DNA from: a virus | IMG/VR virus record: IMGVR_UViG_3300043464_000342 | Location: 1 to 62,176 of that record | Length of the DNA stretch: 62,176 nt | Strand: one strand, 5' to 3' | Shown: one piece after another, positions 2,550 to 61,844 of the stretch | Position numbering within the stretch: the first letter of the stretch is position 1 | Layout of the letters: each line of letters opens with the position of its first letter | The notes under the pieces: generated by a model | Databases searched by the model: none | What the model was told of the DNA's origin: nothing | What the model saw: only the letters and a program-made list of their open reading frames with translations | Made by a program: the position numbers and the translations under genes

Positions 2550-3290
2550 ATGGCAAACATAGATGTTATATCAGTACTACGTGATGACAACGAGTACTAC
2601 AATGGTATTGGCAAACAATACCTATCCAATTCAGACATAGGCATATTGCTTAGTAATCCTCAAGACTTTGGTAAGACACGTGAAGATAACAAAGCGTTTA
2701 TGGATGGCAGATACTTTCACCAATTAATCTTGGAGCCTGAGAAGGCGAAGGCTATGCCATTTGTAGATGTTAGCACACGTACTACCAAAGAATACAAAGC
2801 ATTCTGCGAAGAGAACAACTTACCTTTTTGTATGCTAAGGAAGGAGCAAGACGAGATTCAAAACCTTGTGAACATTATCAACGGGAACATTGCGTTTTAT
2901 GATGAGATTTATAAAGCCGGTAATCAGTACGAGACTCCGGCAGTTGCTGAGATTCAAGGTATGATGTGGAAAGGGAAGGCTGATATTGTCACTGACAATG
3001 CGGTGATTGACCTTAAGACTACAAGTGATATTCATAAGTTCAAGTACAGCGCTAAGTCATATAACTATGATAGTCAGTGCTACATTTATCAGGAACTATT
3101 TGGCAAGCCATTAGTGTTCTACGTGATTGATAAAGGTACCGGAGTTTTAGGTATCTTTAGACCAACGGAGGACTTTGTAAAAGGTGGCGAAGCTAAGGTG
3201 GGTAAAGCGATTGAGGTGTATAATAAATACTTTAGCGCTAAACCAACAGATGATATAGTGAACTATTACATTGACGAGTACTTGTTATAA
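2550..3290 (+). CDS. PD-(D/E)XK exonuclease, RecE/Cas4-like
   Basis: The 246-residue protein shows the PD-(D/E)XK nuclease core: a GKADIV strand with its metal-binding Asp, the VIDLKTT strand (D-x-K) and a downstream QxxxY helix (DSQCYIYQ). The N-terminal half includes FMDGRYFHQLILEPE, typical of RecE-like phage exonucleases. Such enzymes degrade one strand of dsDNA to give the 3' overhangs used by the annealase encoded directly upstream. Length is normal for the compact phage form. Confidence 0.85.
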   Translation: MANIDVISVLRDDNEYYNGIGKQYLSNSDIGILLSNPQDFGKTREDNKAFMDGRYFHQLILEPEKAKAMPFVDVSTRTTKEYKAFCEENNLPFCMLRKEQDEIQNLVNIINGNIAFYDEIYKAGNQYETPAVAEIQGMMWKGKADIVTDNAVIDLKTTSDIHKFKYSAKSYNYDSQCYIYQELFGKPLVFYVIDKGTGVLGIFRPTEDFVKGGEAKVGKAIEVYNKYFSAKPTDDIVNYYIDEYLL

Positions 3291-3312: not shown

Positions 3313-3328
3313 GTGTCTTCAAAGACAC
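3313..3328 (+). repeat. 16-bp palindrome GTGTCTTCAAAGACAC, copy 1
   Basis: Exact copy of the recurrent palindrome, 22 nt after the nuclease stop codon and 5 nt before the tRNA-like gene. As RNA it can form a 6-pair stem closed by UCAA. Other copies are at 8596, 18433 (variant), 32608, 39680, 52358, 56866, 58635, 60601 and 61773. Confidence 0.85.
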
Positions 3329-3332
3329 AGGC

Positions 3333-3413
3333 AGTCAGGAGTCGTTGCGGTAAACGAAAGCTGAGATTAAAGACCTCAGTCTGCTCTTGTAGGTTCGAGT
3401 CCTACCCTGACTA
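3333..3413 (+). tRNA. tRNA-like gene with irregular anticodon arm
   Basis: A seven-pair acceptor stem (AGTCAGG at 3333-3339, CCTGACT at 3406-3412, discriminator A), a four-pair D stem (TCGT/ACGA) with GG in its loop, and a five-pair T arm (GTAGG, loop TTCGAGT, CCTAC) are visible. The anticodon stem CTGAG/CTCAG encloses a nine-base loop ATTAAAGAC; centring it gives AAA, but the frame is uncertain. No CCA is encoded (CAA follows). At 81 nt it is longer than a normal class I tRNA. It may be a functional unusual tRNA or a decayed one. Confidence 0.65.
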
Positions 3414-3488: not shown

Positions 3489-3803
3489 ATGGCAAACGAA
3501 GAAAAAATCTTTGCAGACGGATTCTCATTCAAGAGAAACGAAAAGGCACCTGACTTTGTAGTTGGGAGATTATCAATGAAAGTAGATGAAGCGGTAGCGT
3601 TCATCAGACAGCACGAGAAAGGTGGATGGGTAAACCTTAACATAAAGACTGCACGTAGTGGCAATCATTATGTTGAGTTGGATACCTATGAGCCGACTGC
3701 TCACAGTGGTATGAAACCACAATCAGAGACAGTTGCTACTCCGAAACAAAAAGCACCTCAACCTCAGGTAGCTGATGAAGAAGAAGAGGTACTTCCATTT
3801 TAA
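3489..3803 (+). CDS. Probable single-stranded DNA-binding protein
   Basis: The 104-residue protein has a compact beta-rich N-terminal part (residues 1-65) and a flexible Pro/Gln-rich linker that ends in the acidic tip DEEEEVLPF. Such an acidic, hydrophobic-ended tail is the protein-interaction tip of SSB-type proteins. I do not see a standard OB-fold signature, so the call rests on the tail and on position between the recombinase pair and the primase-helicase. Confidence 0.55.
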   Translation: MANEEKIFADGFSFKRNEKAPDFVVGRLSMKVDEAVAFIRQHEKGGWVNLNIKTARSGNHYVELDTYEPTAHSGMKPQSETVATPKQKAPQPQVADEEEEVLPF

Positions 3804-3831: not shown

Positions 3832-3858
3832 GGGGGAGTGAAAACTTCCCCTTTTTTT
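3832..3858 (+). terminator. Rho-independent terminator
   Basis: An eight-pair stem (GGGGGAGT/ACTTCCCC, one G-U) with a GAAA tetraloop is followed by seven T residues. It closes the transcript after the SSB-like gene. Confidence 0.85.
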
Positions 3859-25026: not shown

Positions 25027-28000
25027 TTAGCACAATGGTAGCATTGGCCAAAATGATTGATGAGTTAATGATGTATTTGATGTAGCTATTATGGTTCCAC
25101 CTGAGTCCCTTAGTTCAAGGGTAAAATAAACAGGAGTCGCTGAACCACTTGGCTCGTAATATAATACTTGACCCGTAGGCGGAGTTGAGTCACTTATAGT
25201 AACCGTTGCCGAACTTGATGGGAATCCTGTAGTAAGCGTTATATAAGAACCTGCCGGTGCATCAGTGGTATTAATACCATATCTTACCGAGCAAGCCGCA
25301 TTGTCATTACAGTTGTTCTGTCTACAAGTAGGAGCACCTAATGAAATAGTTGGTGAAAAACAGTTAGACTGACACTCTTCTAAAGTGGCATAAGGTCCAC
25401 TTCCATCACCCGGGTCTACGCAATCCCCGCTTTCGCAGTTATAAGACTCTACAGCAAGGTCACAATCACAACAAACATCTTCTATGCTTACGGCAGAATA
25501 GCACAATGTAGTGGCTACAGCAGCCCTAAAATCCCATATTAGATACAAGTTATTCTCTAATGCAGGCACAGTAAACTCAGCATAGTTATTTGCACCGCCT
25601 CCTTGATTTGGAGTCGCTGTAGTTGCTACTGTTAATAAAGCATTAATATCAGTGGTATTATTTGCATAAATAGTATCCGACATTAAGTACTTAAACTTAT
25701 CTGTTGCAGGGTTAAATACAAATGTATCAGTAGCAAATTGGTTAGAAATTAATCTAACTGTACTACCTGAAGGAGGGAAAGCTCCTGTTCCTACAAAGTC
25801 AGTTGTAACATTATATCTTGACACAAGAGGATTATCAGTACCTGATGCAAAAGTCACAAGACTTGACTGCAATGGTGACACGTATGCTCCATCTACATAT
25901 CTATATTGAGTATGAATGGTATCCCCTGAATCATAGTCATTGGTTAAAACCACTTGAATAATAGTAAGAGCAACAGCATTTGTACAATTTGCAAGTACAT
26001 TTAGTGTTATATTTCCAATGTAATTAATAGTAATAGTAGCTACTTCCACAGCTACATTATTCTTATCAAAAGTTAATGTGCCACCTGTATTTACAAATCC
26101 TGTAGTTTCTGTAACTCCATCATATTCTACTACTATCTCAAATTCAGCGCCTGTGCTTATAGCTGCAACGCTGTAATCAATATCAGTTATTCCAACAGTA
26201 GGTCCCAAATCAACACAAAACTGAGTAGACTTCTCTTCAGCAAGAGGTGTTGTCAAACTAAAAGTCTGAGAGATACCACACTGCAAACACTGAGGATTAT
26301 CAGGCAAGTTTATTTCATTGCTTGACAATACATATTCATTCATATACGGGTCAAATCCTCCTATCTTTTGAGTATTGAAAGACTCATTAAAGGTATCTCT
26401 AAACCACGTTCTCATATTCATCTCAGATACAACTATTAATTCTTCCTTAGCATATGAAGCGCCTTGTTTTAATTGAATAACAGCGCCACGCTTAACATCA
26501 GTAAAGTATCTATCATATCCCCATTGAACATAACTTTCAGGGTTAAAGCTAATACCATACTTTTCAACACGAGCGATTTGCGTACCTAATACCTCAGGAA
26601 CAGATGCTATAACTCCACCACTTGTGGAATCAGAAATCAAGTTCTTGCTTGCTAAAACGTACGAAATTTTATCTTCTTGTAATAAAAGAATATCTGTTTC
26701 TCTGCCATCCATTATATAAATAGCTCCAAAAGAAGGCTCACAAACCTTATAGTTAATTAAACCTAAGTTAAATTCATTTAGTTTGTTTACGTTTGACTCA
26801 GCGCTATATACTCCACTATATGTAATATCAGAAAATCTATCTGCTGCCTTATAGTCTTGAGCTGATACGCTTGTAACTCTGTTGCCAAGACTAAATGAGT
26901 TACCTACTATTGAGTCTCTAATCTTATAACTTTCTGCTCCGTTACCAAAAGCAAAGCAGTTAAAGAACTTAGTGTCAACAATAGCAGGCGTTCCTGATGT
27001 AATATCTTGGTCTTGTATATTTCCTAAATGATTGCCATCTACTATAGCAAATGACATTTCATTTTCAAAAAACACATCAGGTAATGCCTCAGATGGTTGA
27101 GTTTCAAATATTAAATTCTTATCAGAACGAAATACCGTTATGTTAACTTCAACAGTAGATGCTCTTGCATTTGGAAAATTCAAACCTGTACAAGGTAAAG
27201 TTCCTGTTACCATCAATTGTAATTGATTGGTAGAAGTGTTTCTATAAAATCTATAATAATTTGTACATATATTTGTTGATATATCACCTGCAGTATTAGT
27301 AATTGATGTAATAAACTCATTATCAGGGATACATTGACCTCCTCCCGCATATCTTATACCATCATTTAAAAATTGAGCTATATCTTCCCCAACAAACCAA
27401 TCATACATATTATCATATGAGTTTGCTGATACAAATGTTTTTTCTAATAAATTTCTTCTTTCTTCACAATCATTTCCAACTCCTCCTCTTGATTGTCTAA
27501 TATACATTACAATTCTACTTCCTGCAGGCACATCATAATCTACCCAAGCAGAAGTAGCTGAGTCATATCTATTCATTGGATAAAAAAGAATAGGATAAGT
27601 TCCTCCTCTTGGAGAGGTAACCGTAATTTTTCCCGGTGCTATAACAGCTAATTCATCCTGAACAATACTAAAACTATTAGGATTAATTTTCATATAAACT
27701 CCCGCAGGAATTGGTATAAATACGTCAGGGTCTAATTCACTTGGTATCTCTATAAAATTTGATGTCTGAGATGATTTTTCAAGCACAGTTGCATACACAC
27801 AAGAAGTGGTAGCACCATTTGAGTCAGCCTTTACAATTAATCTATCACCTGCCTCTACCTTACGTGCATTCTCGCCTTCAAGTAAGAAGTAAGCATTATT
27901 TGTTAATGGGTCTTCAAAGAATATAGTACAATAAATTGTCTCATAATTTTCTTCATCAGGCTTGATAACAAACTTATATCTTGTCGCCCAAACAGGCGGT

Positions 28001-29868
28001 AATTGAGTTGGAGGTATTGTTACTTGAATAGAGTTCTTATTAGCAGACAATCCACAAGGGATATGCTCTGTATTATTAGGACTTACAAGTGCAGTTGTTG
28101 CTCTATTAAAATCATCCATATATACAATGCCAATCTCATAGTCACGATTGCTATGTAAACTTTGTGTATTTGCAATTTCTTGGAATGTAGCCTGAGCAAA
28201 TGTCACTTCGTAATATTCATATACTGTCTGAGTAGGTGTAGTTAGATTATTAACATAACGCATAGCAGGCAATTGAAGACCAATCTCACTGCTACCCGGA
28301 CTTGTAATAATATTAATTCCTTGACCAACTGCACTTACACCACTTCCACTTTTTATTAAAGCATCTAAGTTATTTGGTATAGCGCAATTAAATGCATCTG
28401 TAAAAGTTGTACCATTACAAGCATTTGCAATAAGTTGAATATTAGCTGCAGTACCAACTGCGTTTTGAAACTCAACACTTGTAGCTAAATCATATACTGA
28501 CGCATAATTAGTAGACAAGAAAAATGCAAAGTTTAATCTAACTATATCTGTTGTCTCAGTTGGGAATGGAACTTGGCCTGTAAATTCAGAATGCGTTAAG
28601 CTAACATCTAAATTAATTGAAGAACCTGAAACTAAATTTTGACCTGCTAAATCAAACGTAACAACTGCATTAGCAATTGTCACACTTCCGTTGATTGAGT
28701 AATTACCTGAATCAACACCATCAGCAATACTTGTATTGCCTATAGGCGTTGATATTAAATCAGTTGTGTATTCAAATTTAACAGGAGCACCATATTGGTC
28801 TATTAAATCATAACCCTCTACATAGTTGCCATACATCAATCTATTGCCCATAATAGTCTGAGCCTTTGCAAATCTTGGTACATTATCGTACAATCTAAGC
28901 AATTCTGCTTCTGACAATACAGTAAATATTTTACTATTAGTAAAAGTATATTGATACTCAGTATCATTTGCAAGTCCTAAATTAGACTTGTCAAGTTTCT
29001 CAATTACCTTAATAATATTACCATCTGCAGTTTTAAACAATAAATCTAAACCAACTACAAGCGAACTGCCTGAGTTATAAGTGATTATAGCAGAGTTACA
29101 AAAGTTAGTCATACCATCGTTCAAAAAACTTTCAGTACTAAAGCTAAAAGGATTAGGAACAAAAGCAGGTTGAGACCATTGAGAAGTAGCGCTATACTCT
29201 CCATCTATATATCTATATCTATATGCAAAGCATATAAATCTTGTATTTAAAAAATTCTCTTGACCGTTAGTCACAATAGGCTCAACCTTCGGTGATTCTA
29301 CCGGTGGCTTCTTGATAACAAGCAAAGACTCTGCTGTGATTTGGTCTATGTTTCCAATTGGATTAGGATAGTTCCTTTTGATGTTTATACATCTCGGAGC
29401 ATTGTAATCATCAGTAAAGAACAATAAATCAATTAATATATCAATGCCCGTAACTAAATAACTTGGATTAAAATTCAATGTAGTATTAACACCTCCACCA
29501 TCATCAATAGAGATAACGTGATAGGTTAATATATTTGTATAGACATTAAAAGAAACAATCAAGTCAAGTTTTCCTGTGTCTCCTTCTGAGAAATTTGGGT
29601 CGTGTATAAGCCAATAAATAGTCTCATTAGCACTATCTTGCAATGCACCAATACATCTTGCAGATGAACTAAGCGGAGTTCCGTCAATATACGCCAATGA
29701 AGTAAGAGGTATATTACCTTTTGTGTTTTCAATAACCCCCATCTCTGAGTTCTCTGTAGAACCCATTCTAATATTCATAGCATCAATATACTCTCCTTCA
29801 GGTAATAGGCGTTGGTCTATAACCTTGTTCATCTTACCTGCCGTAAAGTTCCTCGTGAATTTTGCCAT
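25027..29868 (-). CDS. Large tail hub/stabilisation protein, 1613 aa
   Basis: The N-terminus (FTAGKMNKVIDQRLLPEGEYIDAMNIRMGS...GVIENTKGN) is typical of the large beta-propeller tail (muzzle/stabilisation) protein in Bacteroidota short-tailed phages. The protein is beta-rich throughout, with Cys clusters after about residue 1260 (CLQCG) and CCDCD near 1475. The final 109 residues are the domain duplicated in the 169-aa protein downstream. It probably forms the outer tail below the ring proteins encoded by the next two upstream genes. Confidence 0.75.
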   Translation of the reverse strand: MAKFTRNFTAGKMNKVIDQRLLPEGEYIDAMNIRMGSTENSEMGVIENTKGNIPLTSLAYIDGTPLSSSARCIGALQDSANETIYWLIHDPNFSEGDTGKLDLIVSFNVYTNILTYHVISIDDGGGVNTTLNFNPSYLVTGIDILIDLLFFTDDYNAPRCINIKRNYPNPIGNIDQITAESLLVIKKPPVESPKVEPIVTNGQENFLNTRFICFAYRYRYIDGEYSATSQWSQPAFVPNPFSFSTESFLNDGMTNFCNSAIITYNSGSSLVVGLDLLFKTADGNIIKVIEKLDKSNLGLANDTEYQYTFTNSKIFTVLSEAELLRLYDNVPRFAKAQTIMGNRLMYGNYVEGYDLIDQYGAPVKFEYTTDLISTPIGNTSIADGVDSGNYSINGSVTIANAVVTFDLAGQNLVSGSSINLDVSLTHSEFTGQVPFPTETTDIVRLNFAFFLSTNYASVYDLATSVEFQNAVGTAANIQLIANACNGTTFTDAFNCAIPNNLDALIKSGSGVSAVGQGINIITSPGSSEIGLQLPAMRYVNNLTTPTQTVYEYYEVTFAQATFQEIANTQSLHSNRDYEIGIVYMDDFNRATTALVSPNNTEHIPCGLSANKNSIQVTIPPTQLPPVWATRYKFVIKPDEENYETIYCTIFFEDPLTNNAYFLLEGENARKVEAGDRLIVKADSNGATTSCVYATVLEKSSQTSNFIEIPSELDPDVFIPIPAGVYMKINPNSFSIVQDELAVIAPGKITVTSPRGGTYPILFYPMNRYDSATSAWVDYDVPAGSRIVMYIRQSRGGVGNDCEERRNLLEKTFVSANSYDNMYDWFVGEDIAQFLNDGIRYAGGGQCIPDNEFITSITNTAGDISTNICTNYYRFYRNTSTNQLQLMVTGTLPCTGLNFPNARASTVEVNITVFRSDKNLIFETQPSEALPDVFFENEMSFAIVDGNHLGNIQDQDITSGTPAIVDTKFFNCFAFGNGAESYKIRDSIVGNSFSLGNRVTSVSAQDYKAADRFSDITYSGVYSAESNVNKLNEFNLGLINYKVCEPSFGAIYIMDGRETDILLLQEDKISYVLASKNLISDSTSGGVIASVPEVLGTQIARVEKYGISFNPESYVQWGYDRYFTDVKRGAVIQLKQGASYAKEELIVVSEMNMRTWFRDTFNESFNTQKIGGFDPYMNEYVLSSNEINLPDNPQCLQCGISQTFSLTTPLAEEKSTQFCVDLGPTVGITDIDYSVAAISTGAEFEIVVEYDGVTETTGFVNTGGTLTFDKNNVAVEVATITINYIGNITLNVLANCTNAVALTIIQVVLTNDYDSGDTIHTQYRYVDGAYVSPLQSSLVTFASGTDNPLVSRYNVTTDFVGTGAFPPSGSTVRLISNQFATDTFVFNPATDKFKYLMSDTIYANNTTDINALLTVATTATPNQGGGANNYAEFTVPALENNLYLIWDFRAAVATTLCYSAVSIEDVCCDCDLAVESYNCESGDCVDPGDGSGPYATLEECQSNCFSPTISLGAPTCRQNNCNDNAACSVRYGINTTDAPAGSYITLTTGFPSSSATVTISDSTPPTGQVLYYEPSGSATPVYFTLELRDSGGTIIATSNTSLTHQSFWPMLPLC
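25030..25356 (-). repeat. Duplicated tail domain, copy at the end of the 1613-aa protein
   Basis: Encodes the last 109 residues. The two copies differ by scattered substitutions, so the duplication is not very recent. Confidence 0.85.
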
Positions 29869-32595: not shown

Positions 32596-32629
32596 AAAAA
32601 AGGGAGAGTGTCTTTGAAGACACCCTCCC
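32596..32629 (-). terminator. Terminator built on the GTGTCTTCAAAGACAC palindrome
   Basis: The palindrome copy at 32608-32623 is extended by GGGAG/CTCCC and followed on the minus strand by a run of six T residues. It forms a strong terminator directly after the capsid gene. It shows that the palindrome can serve as the core of an RNA hairpin. Confidence 0.8.
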
Positions 32630-56564: not shown

Positions 56565-57055
56565 AATAATTGTTTTTGAAGTGTGAAATATTTCAGGGTA
56601 AAGATAAAACTTTTTCAGATACTCATAGTGTTTGGGCTATAGGGGGTTTTTGGCGATAGGACCCCCGACAGGAAATGACTTTTTTTTGACGGGTACGGGT
56701 ACACGTTTTAAACTTTCCTTGCTAATTTTTTAGCTTTTTAGTAGCGCCATCGATGGAAAGGAGCGCCTTAGTCCGCTCCTTTCCTTGCCCGTCCCTCGTA
56801 ATACGTACAACGAACCGCCTGAGACTTGCTTATTCGCTCCCGTCACCGCCATTGCACCGCCTTTTGTGTCTTCAAAGACACTAAACGAGAGAGAAAGGGA
56901 CAAGAGAGAGGCTTTAGACCCTCCTCCGTCTATTCATTGCATAAACTTTGTACATTATTCAGCGCCTTGAATAGCCTTATCCTATTGAGTTTCCACATAT
57001 CAAATAAAAAAAAGATTAAAAAAGTTTTGCAGTATCAAGTAATGAACTATATTTG
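56565..57055. promoter_or_regulatory. Intergenic control region with hairpins, palindrome and plus-strand promoter
   Basis: No convincing gene in 56565-57094. It holds a GGGGGT/ACCCCC hairpin (56642-56666), an 11-pair hairpin (56755-56765 with 56774-56784, loop CCTTAGTC), a palindrome copy at 56866-56881, and a good plus-strand promoter: TTTG at 57026-57029, 18 nt spacer, TATATTTG at 57048-57055. The latter should drive the early operon starting at 57095. Confidence 0.6.
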
Positions 57056-57094: not shown

Positions 57095-57751
57095 ATGAGT
57101 CAATTACTAAGCATCGAAAGCAGTTTCCTGAATCTGCCGATAGTCAAGCAGAGCTTGAACTTGCAAGAAATTAGGAGCGTTCAACGTACCATCGTAAACG
57201 CTAAGAAGAAAAAGTTTGAACAAACTTTGGCCTTGAGTGAATTGGTAATTAAGGCGGTAACGTGGTTTCAATCAGAAGACGGCCAACGTGTATGCGCTGA
57301 AGAGGGCATCAGTTGGACGAATGAGGAGATTGGACAGAAAGTTTTTGGATGGCAAAAGTCTTTTTTCTACAAAGTAGTCAAGGCCGGTAAACTAAAGGTA
57401 GAACGTGAGGAAATAGTTGAGACGTTCGTGCTAAAGTGCAATGAGGCCGAGGCACGAGGTGAAGACCCGAATCGTTCACTTGAGGGATTATTGAAATTCG
57501 CTAAAGCGGTGGAATCAGGCGCTCAAGATGGTGGACAAGGCGAAAGCGAATTGGGTGACCCTGAAACAACGGGTGAGGCTCAAATTGAGACACGTGTTGA
57601 AACCATCCTAACATTCACGTACAAAAGTGAAGGCGGTAACGTATCAGTGCGCATCGATGCCGAGGGCAATGTGAAAACCACTAACAGCATCGAGCAAATT
57701 CGTGAGGCTATTTCGGTATTACAATTTTCAATCCAAAACCAAAATTCATAA
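57095..57751 (+). CDS. Putative DNA-binding early protein, 218 aa
   Basis: Mainly helical N-terminal two thirds with a helix-turn-helix-like segment (SWTNEEIGQKVFGWQKSFFYKVVKAGKL, about 73-100), then an acidic Gly/Glu-rich linker and a C-terminal beta/helix part (ILTFTYKSEGGNVSVRIDAEGNVKT). No known family recognised. First gene of the early operon that leads into the amidoligase, so it may regulate it or supply a substrate. Confidence 0.6.
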   Translation: MSQLLSIESSFLNLPIVKQSLNLQEIRSVQRTIVNAKKKKFEQTLALSELVIKAVTWFQSEDGQRVCAEEGISWTNEEIGQKVFGWQKSFFYKVVKAGKLKVEREEIVETFVLKCNEAEARGEDPNRSLEGLLKFAKAVESGAQDGGQGESELGDPETTGEAQIETRVETILTFTYKSEGGNVSVRIDAEGNVKTTNSIEQIREAISVLQFSIQNQNS

Positions 57752-57753
57752 CT

Positions 57754-58623
57754 ATGAGCGGAATTATCTACCAAACAACGGGTCAACGTGACCGAGCGGT
57801 GGTGCAAAGTTACCACCATAAACCGGCACCATTATTTTTGAACAAGACTAAGCACGTTGTTGACGTTGCCGGTCTTAAGAAAGCCGACCAACGTACGGCT
57901 ATCAAGTTCGAGGGTCAAGACATTGAGGCTAAATTCACCATTGGTTTCGAGGTTGAGAAAAACCAATTGCATCGTGGTGCGGTGCGTGAGTATGAATTGT
58001 TTTGCGGTTTCGAGCGTGATGGGTCTTGCGGTTACGAGGCGGTGACCCACGTGCTCCCATTGTTGCCGAGCGGTCAATGGCGCACTAAGGTCTATGATAT
58101 GATGCACAAGGCTGAAAAGATTATCGATGATAGATATTCGCCATCAGATAGACGTTGCGGTGGTCATATCACCATTGCGGTGGACGGGATGAGCGGTGAC
58201 CAATTGCGTGAGGCCGTTCGTAAAAATTGCGGTATCATTTACGCCTTATTCAAGAAACGCCTTACGAACCACTATTGCAGTTACAACAATCGTATGCAGT
58301 CTTACAACGAGTGCACCAATTGGCATACTAAGTACCAATTAGCGCTCGTTAAGGGTGGTTGTCTTGAGTTTAGGGTGCCAAGCCGTTTCGAGTCAGTAAA
58401 GCAAATGATGAGACGCTATGAGCTGTTTTACGAGGTAGTTAACGCATCAGTATCAGGCACGAGCCACGAGGCGCTCCTTAAGAAACTTAAGCCGGTTATC
58501 GTGTCAATGTACAACGGGGATACGGCAAAGGCTGACGAGGTGCTAAGACTTGCTAAACTATTCAGGACGTACATTCTGAAAGGTGAGGTGCATCAGGATA
58601 TTGCACAATACCTGACAAGGTAG
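57754..58623 (+). CDS. Amidoligase (COOH-NH2 ligase) family enzyme
   Basis: 289 residues. Conserved amidoligase elements in order: IGFEVEKNQ near residues 63-71 (metal-binding Glu residues), GFERDGSCGYEAVTHVLPL near 85-103, RCGGHITIAVDGMS near 134-147, and CLEFRVPSRFESVKQMMRRYE near 203-223. The fold is glutamine-synthetase/ATP-grasp-like and makes amide or isopeptide bonds. A GATase/GGCT fusion is encoded 2 kb downstream, so the two may form one pathway. Substrate unknown. The gene ends 7 nt before the first hairpin-ribozyme unit. Confidence 0.8.
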   Translation: MSGIIYQTTGQRDRAVVQSYHHKPAPLFLNKTKHVVDVAGLKKADQRTAIKFEGQDIEAKFTIGFEVEKNQLHRGAVREYELFCGFERDGSCGYEAVTHVLPLLPSGQWRTKVYDMMHKAEKIIDDRYSPSDRRCGGHITIAVDGMSGDQLREAVRKNCGIIYALFKKRLTNHYCSYNNRMQSYNECTNWHTKYQLALVKGGCLEFRVPSRFESVKQMMRRYELFYEVVNASVSGTSHEALLKKLKPVIVSMYNGDTAKADEVLRLAKLFRTYILKGEVHQDIAQYLTR

Positions 58624-58630
58624 CAACAAC

Positions 58631-58654
58631 GGGAGTGTCTTCAAAGACACTCCC
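58631..58654 (+). repeat. Palindrome hairpin before ribozyme 1
   Basis: The GTGTCTTCAAAGACAC copy at 58635-58650 is extended by GGGA/TCCC to an 11-pair stem. It ends exactly where ribozyme stem III starts. There is no U tract. Confidence 0.85.
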
Positions 58655-58705
58655 TCCGTAGCGGAGTGAGTGCTCCGCCTGACGAGGCCGAAAGGCCGAA
58701 ACGGA
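58655..58705 (+). ncRNA. Type III hammerhead ribozyme 1
   Basis: All core elements are present in 51 nt. Stem III TCCGT/ACGGA (58655-58659 with 58701-58705), cleavage after A58660 (GUA), stem I GCGGAG/CTCCGC with loop TGAGTG, core CTGACGA (58679-58685), stem II GGCC/GGCC with loop GAAA, core GAAA (58698-58701). The paired stems differ from those of ribozymes 2 and 3 but stay complementary. Cleavage would separate the amidoligase mRNA from the downstream genes. Confidence 0.9.
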
Positions 58706-58725
58706 AACCAATAAATCAAAATCAA

Positions 58726-58830
58726 ATGGGACAATCAATTACAATCTTAGAATTATTAGCTATCGGCTTAGTAACCATCGTGTTGTATGCCTTAGTTAAA
58801 ACTTTAGTTGAAACCTTTAAATCAAAGTAA
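58726..58830 (+). CDS. Small single-pass membrane protein, 34 aa
   Basis: MGQSITILELLAIGLVTIVLYALVKTLVETFKSK-type ORF: a hydrophobic helix (residues 8-26) followed by a basic end. The leader AATCAAAATCAAATG lies 20 nt after ribozyme 1. The next gene starts 1 nt after its stop. Function unknown. Confidence 0.55.
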   Translation: MGQSITILELLAIGLVTIVLYALVKTLVETFKSK

Positions 58831-58831
58831 G

Positions 58832-59449
58832 ATGAGAAAAATCACAAGGGAAATCGTGGACGCCTTTCAAAACAGCCGTTCACTTAAAATTGGCAACAGC
58901 CGTACGAATGGCGAGAGCCTATGGCTATTCGACAATAAGATAGCTGAAATCAGGAGAGATGGCTTATGGATAACCAATGCCGGTTGGGATAGCGCAACCA
59001 CAAAGGAGAGGCTGAATGGCTTATCAGGTGTCAATATCGTGCAACGTGGTGGGAGTTGGTACTTGAATGAAAGAAATTGGGATGGAGAATGGGTGAACGT
59101 GGATGCGTGGAATCAGGGAGCTGACTCAATCCCTGAGGGGAATGTTCAGGAGCCTGAGTTCGATGTCACGAGCGTATGGACGAATCAAGGGTACAGCAGA
59201 CCGGTGTATGCGGTTTATCGTACGTTATTGGAGGATGGGTTAAGAGCGGTGGAATACTTGCTAAACGGGGAAGGGATACCATCAAGAAGGATGGAGTCAG
59301 ATACTGAGGGAGTGTATCAACCTAACTACTTCATCGTGGTGCGTCCTCAAGATGTTCAAGCGAGTGCGAGTATTCTATCAGATTATTATCCGATTGAAGA
59401 AACGCCATCGTGTTGCTTAGCTAATTGTTTTTTTAGTGGGGATTATTAA
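58832..59449 (+). CDS. Hypothetical protein with DUF2007-like C-terminal domain, 205 aa
   Basis: The ATG at 58832 is the natural start; a longer frame needs TTG. Residues 1-100 are Trp/Asn/Gly-rich and beta-like. The C-terminal part (VYAVYRTLLEDGLRAVEYLLNGEGIPSRR...YFIVVRPQDVQASASIL) resembles DUF2007-like small signal domains. Ends in a Cys-rich SCCLANCF. Role unknown. It precedes ribozyme 2. Confidence 0.6.
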   Translation: MRKITREIVDAFQNSRSLKIGNSRTNGESLWLFDNKIAEIRRDGLWITNAGWDSATTKERLNGLSGVNIVQRGGSWYLNERNWDGEWVNVDAWNQGADSIPEGNVQEPEFDVTSVWTNQGYSRPVYAVYRTLLEDGLRAVEYLLNGEGIPSRRMESDTEGVYQPNYFIVVRPQDVQASASILSDYYPIEETPSCCLANCFFSGDY

Positions 59450-59450
59450 A

Positions 59451-59492
59451 AGTGGGGGTGTCGTGTGGACGCAATTGCGGACACGCCTCACT
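59451..59492 (+). repeat. Hairpin before ribozyme 2
   Basis: AGTGGGG/CCTCACT and GTGTC/GACAC stems with one bulge enclose a 17-nt loop containing CGCAATTGCG. It is a variant of the palindrome hairpins that precede the other two ribozymes and shares its last base with stem III. Confidence 0.65.
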
Positions 59493-59543
59493 CCGTCCCT
59501 GAGTGTGTTGCTCGGGCTGATGAGTCCTAAAGGACGAAACGGA
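59492..59543 (+). ncRNA. Type III hammerhead ribozyme 2
   Basis: 52 nt. Stem III TCCGT/ACGGA (59492-59496 with 59539-59543), cleavage after C59497 (GUC, the canonical triplet), stem I CCTGAG/CTCGGG (one G-U) with loop TGTGTTG, core CTGATGA (59517-59523), stem II GTCC/GGAC with loop TAAA, core GAAA (59536-59539). The downstream gene start at 59565 carries the usual A-rich leader. Confidence 0.92.
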
Positions 59544-59564
59544 AACCATTTTAATCAAATCAAG

Positions 59565-59855
59565 ATGACAAAAGACAGCCAACAAATTATGGAGGAGTTG
59601 TTCGTGGTGTACTACGAGCAATGTCCAACGGCACGAATCAAGTACGCAATCTATGACCCGACAAAAACACAAGGGCATATTGTATTGTTAGATGAGTGGA
59701 TGGAGATTATTTATTTTGCGGGAGCGGACTCGGTAAAGTTCACAATCGTGAGAGAGGATGAATGTTATTTCTTTGACAAGTACGTGGATGCGGTTAAGTA
59801 TTCAAGTATGCCCATTGATGAGTTCAACGAGTATGTTTTATCAATCACCCTTTAA
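59565..59855 (+). CDS. Hypothetical protein, 96 aa
   Basis: The start at 59565 follows AATCAAATCAAG; a longer frame from 59436 would cover the ribozyme and is rejected. Acidic mixed protein (MTKDSQQIMEELFVVYYEQ...), no motif. First gene after ribozyme 2. Confidence 0.6.
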   Translation: MTKDSQQIMEELFVVYYEQCPTARIKYAIYDPTKTQGHIVLLDEWMEIIYFAGADSVKFTIVREDECYFFDKYVDAVKYSSMPIDEFNEYVLSITL

Positions 59856-59866
59856 ATCTAATCAAG

Positions 59867-60067
59867 ATGACAAAAGAACAAATCACTGTTGCGCCTGAGA
59901 GAGAGCGCAATGAAATCATTCAGGATGTAATTGATAGGCTTATCTATCTACCTGATGAGAAGCTACAAGAGTACAAGCACTACCTTGACGTGCTCGTGTC
60001 GGTGTATCCAATCGATATGAAAGTTGAGGACGGAATCAGAATCTATCACGTAAAAAAATCAAAATGA
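59867..60067 (+). CDS. Hypothetical protein, 66 aa
   Basis: Helical protein (REEIIQDVIDRLIYLPDEKLQEYKHYLDVL-like region) of unknown function. The leader AATCTAATCAAGATG is shared with 61865. Overlaps the next start as ATGA. Confidence 0.6.
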   Translation: MTKEQITVAPERERNEIIQDVIDRLIYLPDEKLQEYKHYLDVLVSVYPIDMKVEDGIRIYHVKKSK

Positions 60068-60354
60068 CAAAAGCAAATGACCAATGGGCGTGTTCGATAT
60101 GTTCACGCCCACAAGGACGCCACGATATGTGGTTCGAGGATGACCTATGTGAAAGGTGCTACGAGAATCTACCAAGATGTAGAGGGTGTGGCACTAAGGA
60201 CACAAAAGAAATAGTTGAAAGCAGATGTGACGCCTATGGCTACGGCACCGGTGATTGGTGTGACAAGTGCTATGATAGTGACAAGTATCCGTATCGTAAG
60301 GATAGGTACTTCGACCCATCGTATGCCGGTGAGAGGTTAGAGGATGATTATTAA
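60064..60354 (+). CDS. Zinc-ribbon protein, 96 aa
   Basis: Four Cys pairs (CSIC, CERC, CRGC, CDKC, each C-x2-C) point to two treble or zinc-ribbon folds; the C-terminus is acidic and Tyr/Asp-rich. May bind nucleic acid or another protein. It is next to the amidotransferase fusion, which ends in similar ribbons. Confidence 0.7.
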   Translation: MTKANDQWACSICSRPQGRHDMWFEDDLCERCYENLPRCRGCGTKDTKEIVESRCDAYGYGTGDWCDKCYDSDKYPYRKDRYFDPSYAGERLEDDY

Positions 60355-60371
60355 TTCTAAATCAAATCAAT

Positions 60372-60533
60372 ATGGAAAGTCAGCACTATTTTCAAATCTT
60401 CTATGCAAATGTATTGGTCTTGTCGGTTGTTGCATACTCAAAGTATGAGGCGATTGACAAGGCGTGTCAAAAGTTAGGGGGTGAGTCCCCTAACTACGAT
60501 AGAAGAAAGTTCAGAGCCAAGAAGGTTTACTAA
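60372..60533 (+). CDS. Small hypothetical protein, 53 aa
   Basis: ORF with the AATCAAATCAATATG leader; product MESQHYFQIFYANVLVLSVV..., a beta/helix mix with basic end (RRKFRAKKVY). Not recognised. The last gene before the promoter at 60541. Confidence 0.55.
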   Translation: MESQHYFQIFYANVLVLSVVAYSKYEAIDKACQKLGGESPNYDRRKFRAKKVY

Positions 60534-60540
60534 AAATAAA

Positions 60541-60572
60541 TTTGGTAATGTCTAATTTATGTCGTATCTTCG
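60541..60572 (+). promoter_or_regulatory. Bacteroidota-type promoter for the amidotransferase gene
   Basis: TTTG at 60541-60544 and TATCTTCG at 60565-60572 are separated by 20 nt, close to the -33/-7 consensus. An ATGTCGT core like that of the 55.9-kb repeats lies inside the spacer. A palindrome copy follows at 60601. Confidence 0.6.
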
Positions 60573-60600
60573 TTCAAATCAAGTTCAATAATCGGGTTCT

Positions 60601-60616
60601 GTGTCTTCAAAGACAC
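60601..60616 (+). repeat. 16-bp palindrome copy before the amidotransferase gene
   Basis: Exact GTGTCTTCAAAGACAC, 24 nt before the ATG at 60640, in the leader after the promoter. No hammerhead core follows here. Confidence 0.8.
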
Positions 60617-60639
60617 TGCCCACAAATCAAATCAAGTCT

Positions 60640-61758
60640 ATGTGTGTAATTATTATCAAGCAGAAGGGTAAGAAAGTCCCTCAGGAGGTTGCAAAGACCT
60701 CCGCAAGAATCAATCCCCACGGGTTGGGGGTTGTGTGGTTAGATACGTTCGAGGTAACGTATCACAAATCAGCAGAGTACAAGGTACTCGATACAGCGAG
60801 GCCATTCATTGCTCACTTTAGATATGCGACCATTGGTGCTATCAACAAAGAGAACACGCATCCATTCAGATGCGGGAGCAATAAGAACGAGTGGTTGATG
60901 ATGAACGGGACGATAAGAGAGTTGGGCAACCACAAGAAAAGTGACTCAAAGGTATTGGCCGAGAACTTGGGTGAGATACCACGCCATCAGTGGAAGAAAG
61001 AGTTGGAGCGTTACGAGTGTAGGTTCGTGTCGGTTAACACGCACAGCAGAACGTATCAGATGTATAACAAAGAGTTATGGGTTCAGAGAGATGGGGTTTG
61101 GTATAGCAAGGACAACGTCCTTGAGGATAACCTGATAGCGGTGTATGGTACGTTGAAGAAGGGGTATAGTAACTACAACCATTACTTGACAAGTTCAAAG
61201 TATGTGGGTAAGGGTAAGACCAAAGACAAGTATCCCTTGGTAGTTAGTGGACTACCTTATTTGATTGAGGAGCGTGGACAAGGGTTCAATGTGGAGGTGG
61301 ATGTGTTCAAGGTGAGTGCGTCAGTACTTGCTAACTTGGATAGGTTGGAGGGTCACCCGACTTGGTATAGACGTAAGCAGATTGACATTCAGATGAAAGG
61401 CAAGGTGCTTAAGTGTTGGGTTTATTTCAACCTAAGAGAGAGGGCGAATGGTCAGACCTTGCATAGTACGTACACGCAAGCGCCAAACAGAGTTAAGTGG
61501 TACGAGGAGGAGGATGAGAAGGAGAGCGCAAAAGAGGTGAGTATATTTGCTAATATGGGTTACGAGGAGCCGAAGAGTGCGAGGCTGATAGATATTTTAG
61601 AGGATGAGTGTGACGATTGTGAGTTCGACATAACAAATGAGAAGCCCGTGTGTGTGAATTGCTTCCACGATTTGGAGCACGATATGTTTGCGAACTATCA
61701 TTGTAGCAGTTGCGATGAGTGGTTCAGTGAGTCCGATGTGATTATGTTCAGGAACTAA
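60640..61758 (+). CDS. Class II amidotransferase - GGCT (AIG2-like) - zinc-ribbon fusion, 372 aa
   Basis: The start at 60640 gives Met-Cys-Val, placing the N-terminal nucleophile Cys of a class II glutamine amidotransferase at residue 2 after Met removal. The Ntn-type domain covers about 1-155 (HFRYATIG, NGTIRELGNH). A gamma-glutamyl cyclotransferase-like domain follows (about 165-275): VYGTLKKG, FNVEVDVFKVS, LANLDRLEGHPTWYRRK. The C-terminal end has three zinc-type Cys pairs (CDDC, CVNC, CSSC). The pairing with the amidoligase fits a system that makes and removes gamma-glutamyl or amide links. Confidence 0.82.
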   Translation: MCVIIIKQKGKKVPQEVAKTSARINPHGLGVVWLDTFEVTYHKSAEYKVLDTARPFIAHFRYATIGAINKENTHPFRCGSNKNEWLMMNGTIRELGNHKKSDSKVLAENLGEIPRHQWKKELERYECRFVSVNTHSRTYQMYNKELWVQRDGVWYSKDNVLEDNLIAVYGTLKKGYSNYNHYLTSSKYVGKGKTKDKYPLVVSGLPYLIEERGQGFNVEVDVFKVSASVLANLDRLEGHPTWYRRKQIDIQMKGKVLKCWVYFNLRERANGQTLHSTYTQAPNRVKWYEEEDEKESAKEVSIFANMGYEEPKSARLIDILEDECDDCEFDITNEKPVCVNCFHDLEHDMFANYHCSSCDEWFSESDVIMFRN

Positions 61759-61767
61759 CCTGACTCA

Positions 61768-61793
61768 GGGTGGTGTCTTCAAAGACACTACCC
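61768..61793 (+). repeat. Palindrome hairpin before ribozyme 3
   Basis: The GTGTCTTCAAAGACAC copy at 61773-61788 is extended by GGGTG/TACCC to a 12-pair stem (one G-U), ending exactly before ribozyme stem III. Confidence 0.85.
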
Positions 61794-61844
61794 TCCGTAG
61801 TAGAGTGATTGCTCTACCTGATGAGCTCAAAAGAGCGAAACGGA
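61794..61844 (+). ncRNA. Type III hammerhead ribozyme 3
   Basis: 51 nt. Stem III TCCGT/ACGGA (61794-61798 with 61840-61844), cleavage after A61799 (GUA), stem I GTAGAG/CTCTAC with loop TGATTG, core CTGATGA (61818-61824), stem II GCTC/GAGC with loop AAAA, core GAAA (61837-61840). Loops I of the three ribozymes share a TG...TG pattern. Confidence 0.92.

Follow-up and report, generated by a model that had tools for sequence, protein, structure and literature searches.

The 62,176-nucleotide (nt) virus record IMGVR_UViG_3300043464_000342, analysed at its full length and called the window below, carries three type III hammerhead ribozymes (HHR1 to HHR3) in an early operon on its + strand. Comparison with related phages suggests that they belong to exchangeable modules, each made of a hairpin and a cutter, that probably end an mRNA inside the operon without stopping the polymerase. 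In such a module, a stable hairpin directly behind a stop codon would be followed by the hammerhead, a leader of about 20 nt and the next ATG. The polymerase would read through, and the hammerhead would fold and cut itself after residue H17. The upstream mRNA would then end with the hairpin and the six nucleotides UCCGUH, bearing a 2',3'-cyclic phosphate, and the downstream mRNA would begin with a 5'-OH on stem I. Both new ends are expected to be exonuclease-resistant. The module would yield a terminator-like 3' end within the operon as transcription continues, the early transcript being cut into separately decaying pieces. Self-cleavage, the chemistry of the ends in the cell, their stabilisation and the benefit to the phage are what we infer from the sequences.

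Three hammerheads in the early operon

The hammerheads and their neighbouring hairpins, all on the + strand, are as follows (bp, base pairs; E, expectation value).

58631..58654, +: hairpin 1, 10 bp, GGGAGTGTCTTCAAAGACACTCCC, no gap to HHR1 (sequence read, minimum-energy fold, shuffles)
58655..58705, +: HHR1, type III hammerhead, predicted cut after A58660 (RF00008, 40.1 bits, E 4.5e-6)
59455..59494, +: hairpin 2, longer and imperfect, its GTGTC/GACAC core spanning 59458-59484 (predicted at minimum energy to invade stem III of HHR2)
59492..59543, +: HHR2, type III hammerhead, predicted cut after C59497 (RF00008, 41.4 bits, E 2e-6)
61768..61793, +: hairpin 3, 11 bp, GGGTGGTGTCTTCAAAGACACTACCC, abutting HHR3 (sequence read, shuffles, fold)
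61794..61844, +: HHR3, type III hammerhead, predicted cut after A61799 (RF00008, 37.2 bits, E 3e-5)

The initial annotation had described three type III hammerheads within one phage operon, and this description holds, as the cores, the Rfam match, a motif scan and a family model agree. Reading the sequence again gave the same coordinates, stems, cores and cleavage residues (A58660, C59497 and A61799). The cleavage triplets are GUA, GUC and GUA, and the cores are full (CUGANGA and GAA, with A15.1-U16.1). Stems I and II are closed by loops and the open ends lie in stem III, which is the type III topology; stem III, UCCGU/ACGGA, is common to all three. The copies are 51-52 nt long, span 3.2 kb and each precede a gene, as had been stated; each equally follows a gene.

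The Rfam covariance model RF00008 (Hammerhead_3), with E values taken from a 9.2-kb search, covers HHR1 to HHR3 over their full length with 37.2-41.4 bits, under the gathering score of 48.5. Since full-length matches are obtained at E 2e-6 to 3e-5, the shortfall lies with the curated cut-off rather than with the motif. A generic type III scan of the window returned exactly HHR1 to HHR3, against a total of four hits in 100 simulated windows (Markov-1). A covariance model made from copies of the phage family scores them at 69-71 bits, the three being themselves among its 53 seed sequences. In minimum-energy folding, HHR1 and HHR3 adopt the expected structure with hairpin and ribozyme formed together. 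By sequence and predicted structure, HHR1 to HHR3 are complete type III hammerheads.

Hammerheads across the phage family

The sequence, placement and conservation of these elements can be read directly in related genomes, as can their replacement by others. Counts from pattern scans of the whole collection (hammerhead, 16-mer and mini-tRNA, the latter two described below) are lower bounds. The hammerhead pattern was found in at least 119 stretches of viral contigs. Fifty records of the family were assembled, 31 picked for the hammerhead pattern, 17 for the 16-mer and two as named phages, so that the sampling favoured both features. The family covariance model (53 copies) gave 110 strong matches (E ≤3.4e-11) in 47 of these 50 records, with one to five in each; 15 of the 17 records picked by the 16-mer only also hold strong matches. 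Alignment A1 contains 52 of 55 sequences (three near-duplicates omitted) and the copy of Flavobacterium phage elemo. In 27 whole or nearly whole genomes, 51 strong type III matches were found, the next best having E 0.12. Four of the 23 relatives' records (G033, G037, G025 and G047) stop short of the ends by 108 to 4818 bases. Three hammerheads per genome are thus ordinary in this podovirus family. The cultured elemo phages carry one copy, in a 321-base region matched at ≥99% by 68 records, RefSeq duplicates included; the 60 elemo-region records listed match at 100%. In Cellulophaga phage phi38:1 no type III hammerhead was found, and the scan for type I did not cover this phage.

In the 27 genomes, the early strand bears all 51 type III copies, and each is followed by an ATG at a distance of 11-58 nt (median 22). 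The proteins encoded upstream of 49 copies fall into 14 clusters (20, 11, 4 and smaller ones), and those downstream of the 51 copies into 37 clusters, the largest with four members. Because there are few large upstream clusters and many small downstream ones, the conserved feature in these comparisons is where the upstream gene ends; what lies downstream varies from genome to genome. The earlier remark that each hammerhead stands before a gene is correct, and overlooks both this tie and the abutting hairpin. The variation of the stems with retention of pairing, which had been read from the window's copies, is confirmed in orthologous positions: of 24 regions chosen solely as lying behind a homologue of gene 57754-58623, 20 hold a type III hammerhead, and stems I to III differ among many of them.

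Stem pairing among the copies amounts to 98.4%, a figure reached partly by construction as the scan itself required stems. In the 51 copies, loop I is mostly of the UGNGU type and loop II mostly of the NAAA type, while the stems differ; this pattern would be expected if the two loops make contact. Judged by sequence, the small loops leave no space for a ligand domain. In five genomes (G001, G003, G004, G008 and G021), the hammerheads behind the amidotransferase-GGACT gene form a sub-lineage with a U-U mismatch at 10.1-11.1, which persists across divergent phages. The core with a 5-bp stem III occurs at 56 places in the family genomes: 29 have full stems I and II, nine have a full stem I with a broken first stem II pair or an insertion, and 18 look like chance. 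Among at least 102 distinct matches to the core-and-stem-III pattern, pairing is strict in both stems in 36, in stem I only in 28, in stem II only in six and in neither in 32.

Hairpins abutting the hammerheads

Hairpins 1 and 3 end exactly where stem III starts. An abutting 5' hairpin with a score of at least 6 was found at 61 of 73 distinct hammerheads from many phages (one of 74 was dropped for its short flank), compared with 10.0% of dinucleotide shuffles; at a score of at least 8, the figures were 45 of 73 and 1.8%. The whole family genomes gave 41 of 51 copies at a score of at least 6, versus 10.9% of shuffles, and a score-6 hairpin lies between stop codon and hammerhead in 36 of 42 cases. 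Hairpins 1 to 3 are rejected as intrinsic terminators, as they are followed by UCCGU and no U-run.

The hairpin differs in sequence among copies, and its top is often a 16-bp near-palindrome, GTGTC-N6-GACAC (the 16-mer). It has ten sites in the window by a 16-mer scan, where 0.02 matches with at most two mismatches are expected.

3313, 8596, 18433, 32608, 39680, 52358, 56866, 58635, 60601, 61773: 16-bp near-palindrome GTGTC-N6-GACAC

The 16-mer is present in 43 of the 50 family records, in 42 of them with 5 to 19 copies; a backwards control pattern occurs in one record. It is found within genes as well as between them. Its centre reads TG in 24 and CA in 19 cases in + genes, and CA in 45 and TG in 19 in - genes. 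One orientation prevails in the spacers of co-directional genes (CA in 43, TG in 13) and next to hammerheads (19 versus 5); all these figures depend on crude gene calling, and homologous sites enter them repeatedly. The idea that the hairpin is purely an RNA repeat was rejected, since the 16-mer inside genes has little stem extension and an inconstant centre, although the orientation bias between genes argues the other way. It looks like a DNA motif reused by the hairpins. As it also lies inside genes, it probably has a role as DNA too, possibly serving a phage protein as operator or roadblock site. At window position 32608 (- strand), the 16-mer tops an apparent intrinsic terminator (hairpin and TTTTTT) between two - strand genes. 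The early region of phage MW202828 (L123) contains 14 identical copies of GTGTCGTTAACGACAC, several of them immediately after a stop codon with an ATG some 20 nt further on.

Different predicted cutters at the same gene ends

The ends of four early genes were read in the 27 genomes regardless of hammerheads, and a table of 27 early genes in 26 genomes was compiled. The following gene ends carry a cutter.

57095-57751, end: 24 homologues; 4 type III, 2 type I, 1 tRNA-like, 17 without cutter
57754-58623, end: 24 homologues; 20 type III, 2 tRNA-like, 1 intrinsic terminator, 1 bare palindrome
58832-59449, end: 7 homologues; 2 type III, 1 type I
59867-60067, end: 9 homologues; 1 tRNA-like
60640-61758, end: 24 homologues; 11 type III, 3 tRNA-like, 1 terminator, 9 without cutter
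2550-3290, end: 25 homologues; 5 tRNA-like, the window's included

In the table, the remaining 21 of the 27 early genes have no cutter at their ends. An intrinsic terminator takes the place of the module at one anchor slot, the end of an anchor gene, in each of G025 and G040. One of the three tRNA-like elements behind 60640-61758 (in G047) sits behind a terminator-like hairpin. The type I hammerhead scan gave eight hits against 0.25 expected; one (G037, - strand, in a gene) was judged to be chance, and a further copy, in G047, was found by eye outside the scan. The eight type I copies all lie 13 to 23 nt before an ATG. In G006 and G016, stem III of the type I copy is a form of that lineage's own palindrome.

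The three layouts have the hairpin, where present, just 5' of the predicted cut: hairpin-UCCGUH| for type III, hairpin-H| for type I with the hairpin as stem III, and hairpin-0 to 6 nt-| for tRNA-like elements. Since the same gene ends are served by one cutter or another or by an ordinary terminator, depending on the genome, the selected job seems to be formation of the 3' end of the upstream mRNA, differing from a terminator in that downstream transcription would continue. A wider proposal, which we hold tentatively and with slightly more doubt than belief, is a general 'cut and cap' device. Here a hairpin and an interchangeable cutter (a type III hammerhead, a type I hammerhead with the hairpin as stem III, or a tRNA-like element for host RNase P) would make mRNA 3' ends in operons, evolution swapping the cutter while keeping the cut, and a mini-tRNA of about 40 nt would be a widespread phage RNA element.

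tRNA-like and mini-tRNA elements

The window's own tRNA-like element, one of the larger ones, lies behind gene 2550-3290.

3313..3328, +: hairpin GTGTCTTCAAAGACAC, separated by 4 nt from the tRNA-like element that follows (sequence scan)
3333..3412, +: tRNA-like element, proposed RNase P site (acceptor stem of 7 bp, D-like arm, middle arm whose loop has 9 nt, T-arm whose loop reads TTCGAGT)

It has the 7-bp acceptor stem and the 5-bp T-arm with TTCRA loop expected of a tRNA or RNase P substrate. It was classed as tRNA-like rather than as a tRNA because ARAGORN made no call and the best Rfam match, to tRNA-Sec, reached 24.9 bits where 47 are required (E 0.018, 801 nt searched). A scan of the family genomes for an acceptor stem plus T-arm gave 24 hits with 3.25 expected: two by chance (G000 and G012; - strand, in genes), seven ordinary tRNAs (three by ARAGORN, one annotated, three by eye) and 15 non-canonical elements, all on the + strand. 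A hairpin with a score of at least 6 accompanies eight of the 15 non-canonical elements and one of six ordinary tRNAs.

The family genomes contain seven mini tRNA-like elements against 0.5 expected, each of them on the early strand; at five of them a hairpin with a score of at least 5 stands close upstream (1.2 expected). Many other phages (L328-L440) also carry an element of about 40 nt with acceptor stem, AATGGTT linker and T-arm, and in most cases an ATG follows it within 60 nt. In these phages, the acceptor is closed by at least six pairs at 37 of at least 96 pattern matches, compared with 2.9 expected on permuting the flanks. At Rfam 15 gathering thresholds, none of the mini-tRNA copies in ten loci was matched; at E ≤1, no mini-tRNA match was obtained in L279, and in L291 one of two tRNA-like elements matched tRNA with E 0.44. 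Minimal RNase P substrates consist of an acceptor plus T-arm helix. The mini elements, which are candidate substrates, resemble them, with a stacked 3' strand of 10-13 nt, most often 12 (a range partly set by the scan), and differ in being natural, intergenic and phage-borne and in having the AATGGTT linker. They may form a new class of RNase P substrate. One phage contig with a mini tRNA-like element also has a Pistol ribozyme (L375, 11373-11445, 68.2 bits).

Alternative explanations

Two other roles, either of which may coexist with 3'-end formation, would also place hammerheads in these positions. The hairpin might chiefly aid the ribozyme by stacking on the 5-bp stem III, stabilising a weak fold and shielding it from translated sequence, with 3' protection incidental. 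The missing gap between hairpin and stem III in most hairpin-bearing copies and the formation of both helices in the HHR1 and HHR3 folds are in keeping with this; yet most of the family's mini tRNA-like elements (the five of seven noted above) also have the hairpin while needing no such help, and the hairpin of HHR2 competes with stem III. As the principal function, it appears rather doubtful. The hammerheads might instead serve the downstream gene, trimming its leader to a defined, hairpin-topped 5'-OH end as a natural insulator like RiboJ. This would account for the tight spacing to the next ATG and for a leader that is mostly unpaired (mean 18% paired between hammerhead and ATG). The article on RiboJ (PMC6206723) describes increased expression of the insulated genes. 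Against this, the downstream genes are mostly unrelated among genomes while the upstream gene is constant, a purely 5' role needs no hairpin upstream of the cut, and G025 and G040 each have an intrinsic terminator in place of the module at one anchor slot; we regard insulation as unlikely to be the main function. Two further ideas carry far less weight. If pairs of hammerheads excised segments, the 5'-OH and 2',3'-cyclic ends could be joined into circular RNA through the common stem III, UCCGU/ACGGA in all three window copies, but stem III is shared within genomes in 15 of 48 pairs with 12.2 expected (p 0.20); lacking such an excess, this very improbable idea was rejected. It is hardly credible that the hammerheads are selfish repeats or chance matches with no job. 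The motif is small and easily arises, and as only 36 of at least 102 pattern matches are strictly paired in both stems I and II, raw matches do include chance ones; however, 20 of 24 genomes have kept an orthologous copy after the same gene despite changed stems, none of 48 within-genome pairs has stem I in common, and all 51 copies are on one strand.

Formation of 3' ends by hairpin and cutter has itself several observations to contend with. No hammerhead was found in MW202828 or G034 and no strong type III in G041, and in 107 kb of relatives searched, as for HHR1 to HHR3, no copy attains the Rfam gathering score. By energy alone, HHR2 departs from the expected fold, as its hairpin invades stem III; all three stems are kept in the minimum-energy fold of hairpin, ribozyme and leader at 20 of the 51 copies, in a model that does not include tertiary contacts. 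The usual G-C pair 10.1-11.1 is missing from 12 of the 51 copies, ten of which have U-U, and this may slow cleavage. Ten of the 51 copies have no score-6 hairpin, and the elemo copy scores 2. In elemo MT497074, the sole strong hammerhead match (29242-29294, - strand) lies 15 nt before the first gene of a - strand block without an abutting hairpin, an arrangement that suits an insulator better. Of 898 + strand gene ends that have no type III copy, 390 also have a score-6 hairpin no more than 60 nt away, and gene ends without a cutter are frequent (17 of 24 for 57095-57751, 9 of 24 for 60640-61758). The bias in protein clusters is partly expected, as upstream genes are better conserved and the small downstream ones evolve faster. 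Outside the family, the hairpin signal upstream of mini-tRNAs is weak (9 of 48, with 9% in shuffles).

Relation to known systems

The viroid and satellite type III hammerheads of RF00008 share topology and core with HHR1 to HHR3 and match them over the full length; the window's copies differ in their score (37-41 bits against the cut-off of 48.5) and in a shorter stem III. The ribozyme of sTRSV presumably resembles HHR2 closely. An intrinsic terminator also has a GC-rich hairpin behind a stop codon, whereas the U-run is absent after the hairpin at hammerheads. RiboJ, a synthetic insulator, places a hammerhead next to a hairpin that lies downstream of the ribozyme; in the present modules the hairpin is upstream of the predicted cut. 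In RiboJ (PMC6206723) as in these modules, a self-cleaving ribozyme, predicted in the latter, lies ahead of a leader and start codon.

The initial annotation regarded the cluster as a striking arrangement. Clusters as such have a precedent in the survey of Perreault et al. 2011 (PMC3088659), in whose account several prophage hammerheads likewise flank genes of one phage transcript and processing into gene-length mRNAs is suggested; tandem-array cleavage is reported there in vitro and, in the case of A. tumefaciens, within E. coli cells. That article describes the gene identities as not constant, whereas in this podovirus family the upstream gene is constant, and one of its filters rejected mispairs at N10.1-N11.1 such as those of 12 of the 51 copies here. 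A term search of its main text found no flanking hairpin, tRNA-like substitute or RNase P. Hammerhead clusters and the idea of mRNA processing have been known since 2011; the setting, that is, the hairpin, the tie to the upstream gene and the exchange, seems new. Among the open-licence papers listed, titles and abstract openings contained nothing on hairpins abutting phage hammerheads, on tRNA-like exchange or on mini-tRNAs in phage operons, which is weak evidence of absence. The 2011 survey left the role of phage hammerheads open, and the occurrence of different cutters or plain terminators at the same gene ends provides a concrete, testable one: protected mRNA 3' ends within an operon. As elemo phages and their host, Flavobacterium sp. 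BAL314, are in culture, their hammerhead can be mapped in this laboratory host. Designers of synthetic operons could also take the layout of hairpin and cutter as a natural model for keeping genes apart.

The phage and its early operon

The 62-kb record, from a phage of aquatic bacteria, has phage terminase, portal and GroEL genes; among named phages it is closest to podoviruses that infect Flavobacteriia or unnamed hosts. The terminase is 80% identical to that of MW202828 and 45% to that of phage elemo, and the portal of phi38:1 is 34% identical to the window's. At the DNA level, the hammerhead operon has a single short match among named phages, in MW202828.

Because MW202828 is circular and the hammerheads of G012 (terminase 100% identical) lie at 62.4 kb (HHR1), 63.5 kb (HHR2) and 1.8 kb (HHR3) of a 64.1-kb record, the early operon is judged to continue from the right end of the window's record into its left end. 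The predicted early transcript starts near 57 kb, passes over the end of the record and stops near 3.85 kb; the operon likely ends at the terminator 3832..3858. Its features are the following.

57026..57055, +: Bacteroidetes-type promoter-like match ahead of the operon (five matches in the window, on both strands)
57095..57751, +: first early-operon gene (ends of homologues tabulated above)
57754..58623, +: anchor gene of HHR1, without Pfam family; a glutamine-synthetase/YbdK-like fold (carboxylate-amine ligase) is predicted with middling scores
58832..59449, +: gene preceding HHR2, N-terminal Kyano_Gp96 domain (domain search)
60541..60572, +: Bacteroidetes-type promoter-like match within the operon, ahead of 60640
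60640..61758, +: anchor gene of HHR3, fusion of class II glutamine amidotransferase and GGACT domains (domain search)
2550..3290, +: PD-(D/E)XK nuclease-like gene, DUF3799 (domain search)
3832..3858, +: intrinsic terminator behind gene 3489-3803 (a terminator scores behind 20 of the 24 homologues)

The structure model of the protein encoded by 57754-58623 has a mean pLDDT (predicted local distance difference test) of 88. It matches glutamine-synthetase/YbdK folds with middling scores, both in Foldseek (E 8e-5, TM-score 0.34) and by VIA (Z up to 9.1, root-mean-square deviation 4.0 over 188 residues), and the protein may be a glutamine-synthetase-like ligase. The label 'amidoligase', first considered for this gene, found no support from Pfam or from a profile search of PDB sequences. 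Elsewhere in the window, 25027-29868 (- strand) contains a Crassvirus muzzle-protein domain (PF25731, E 3.9e-11), which hints at crAss-like kinship.

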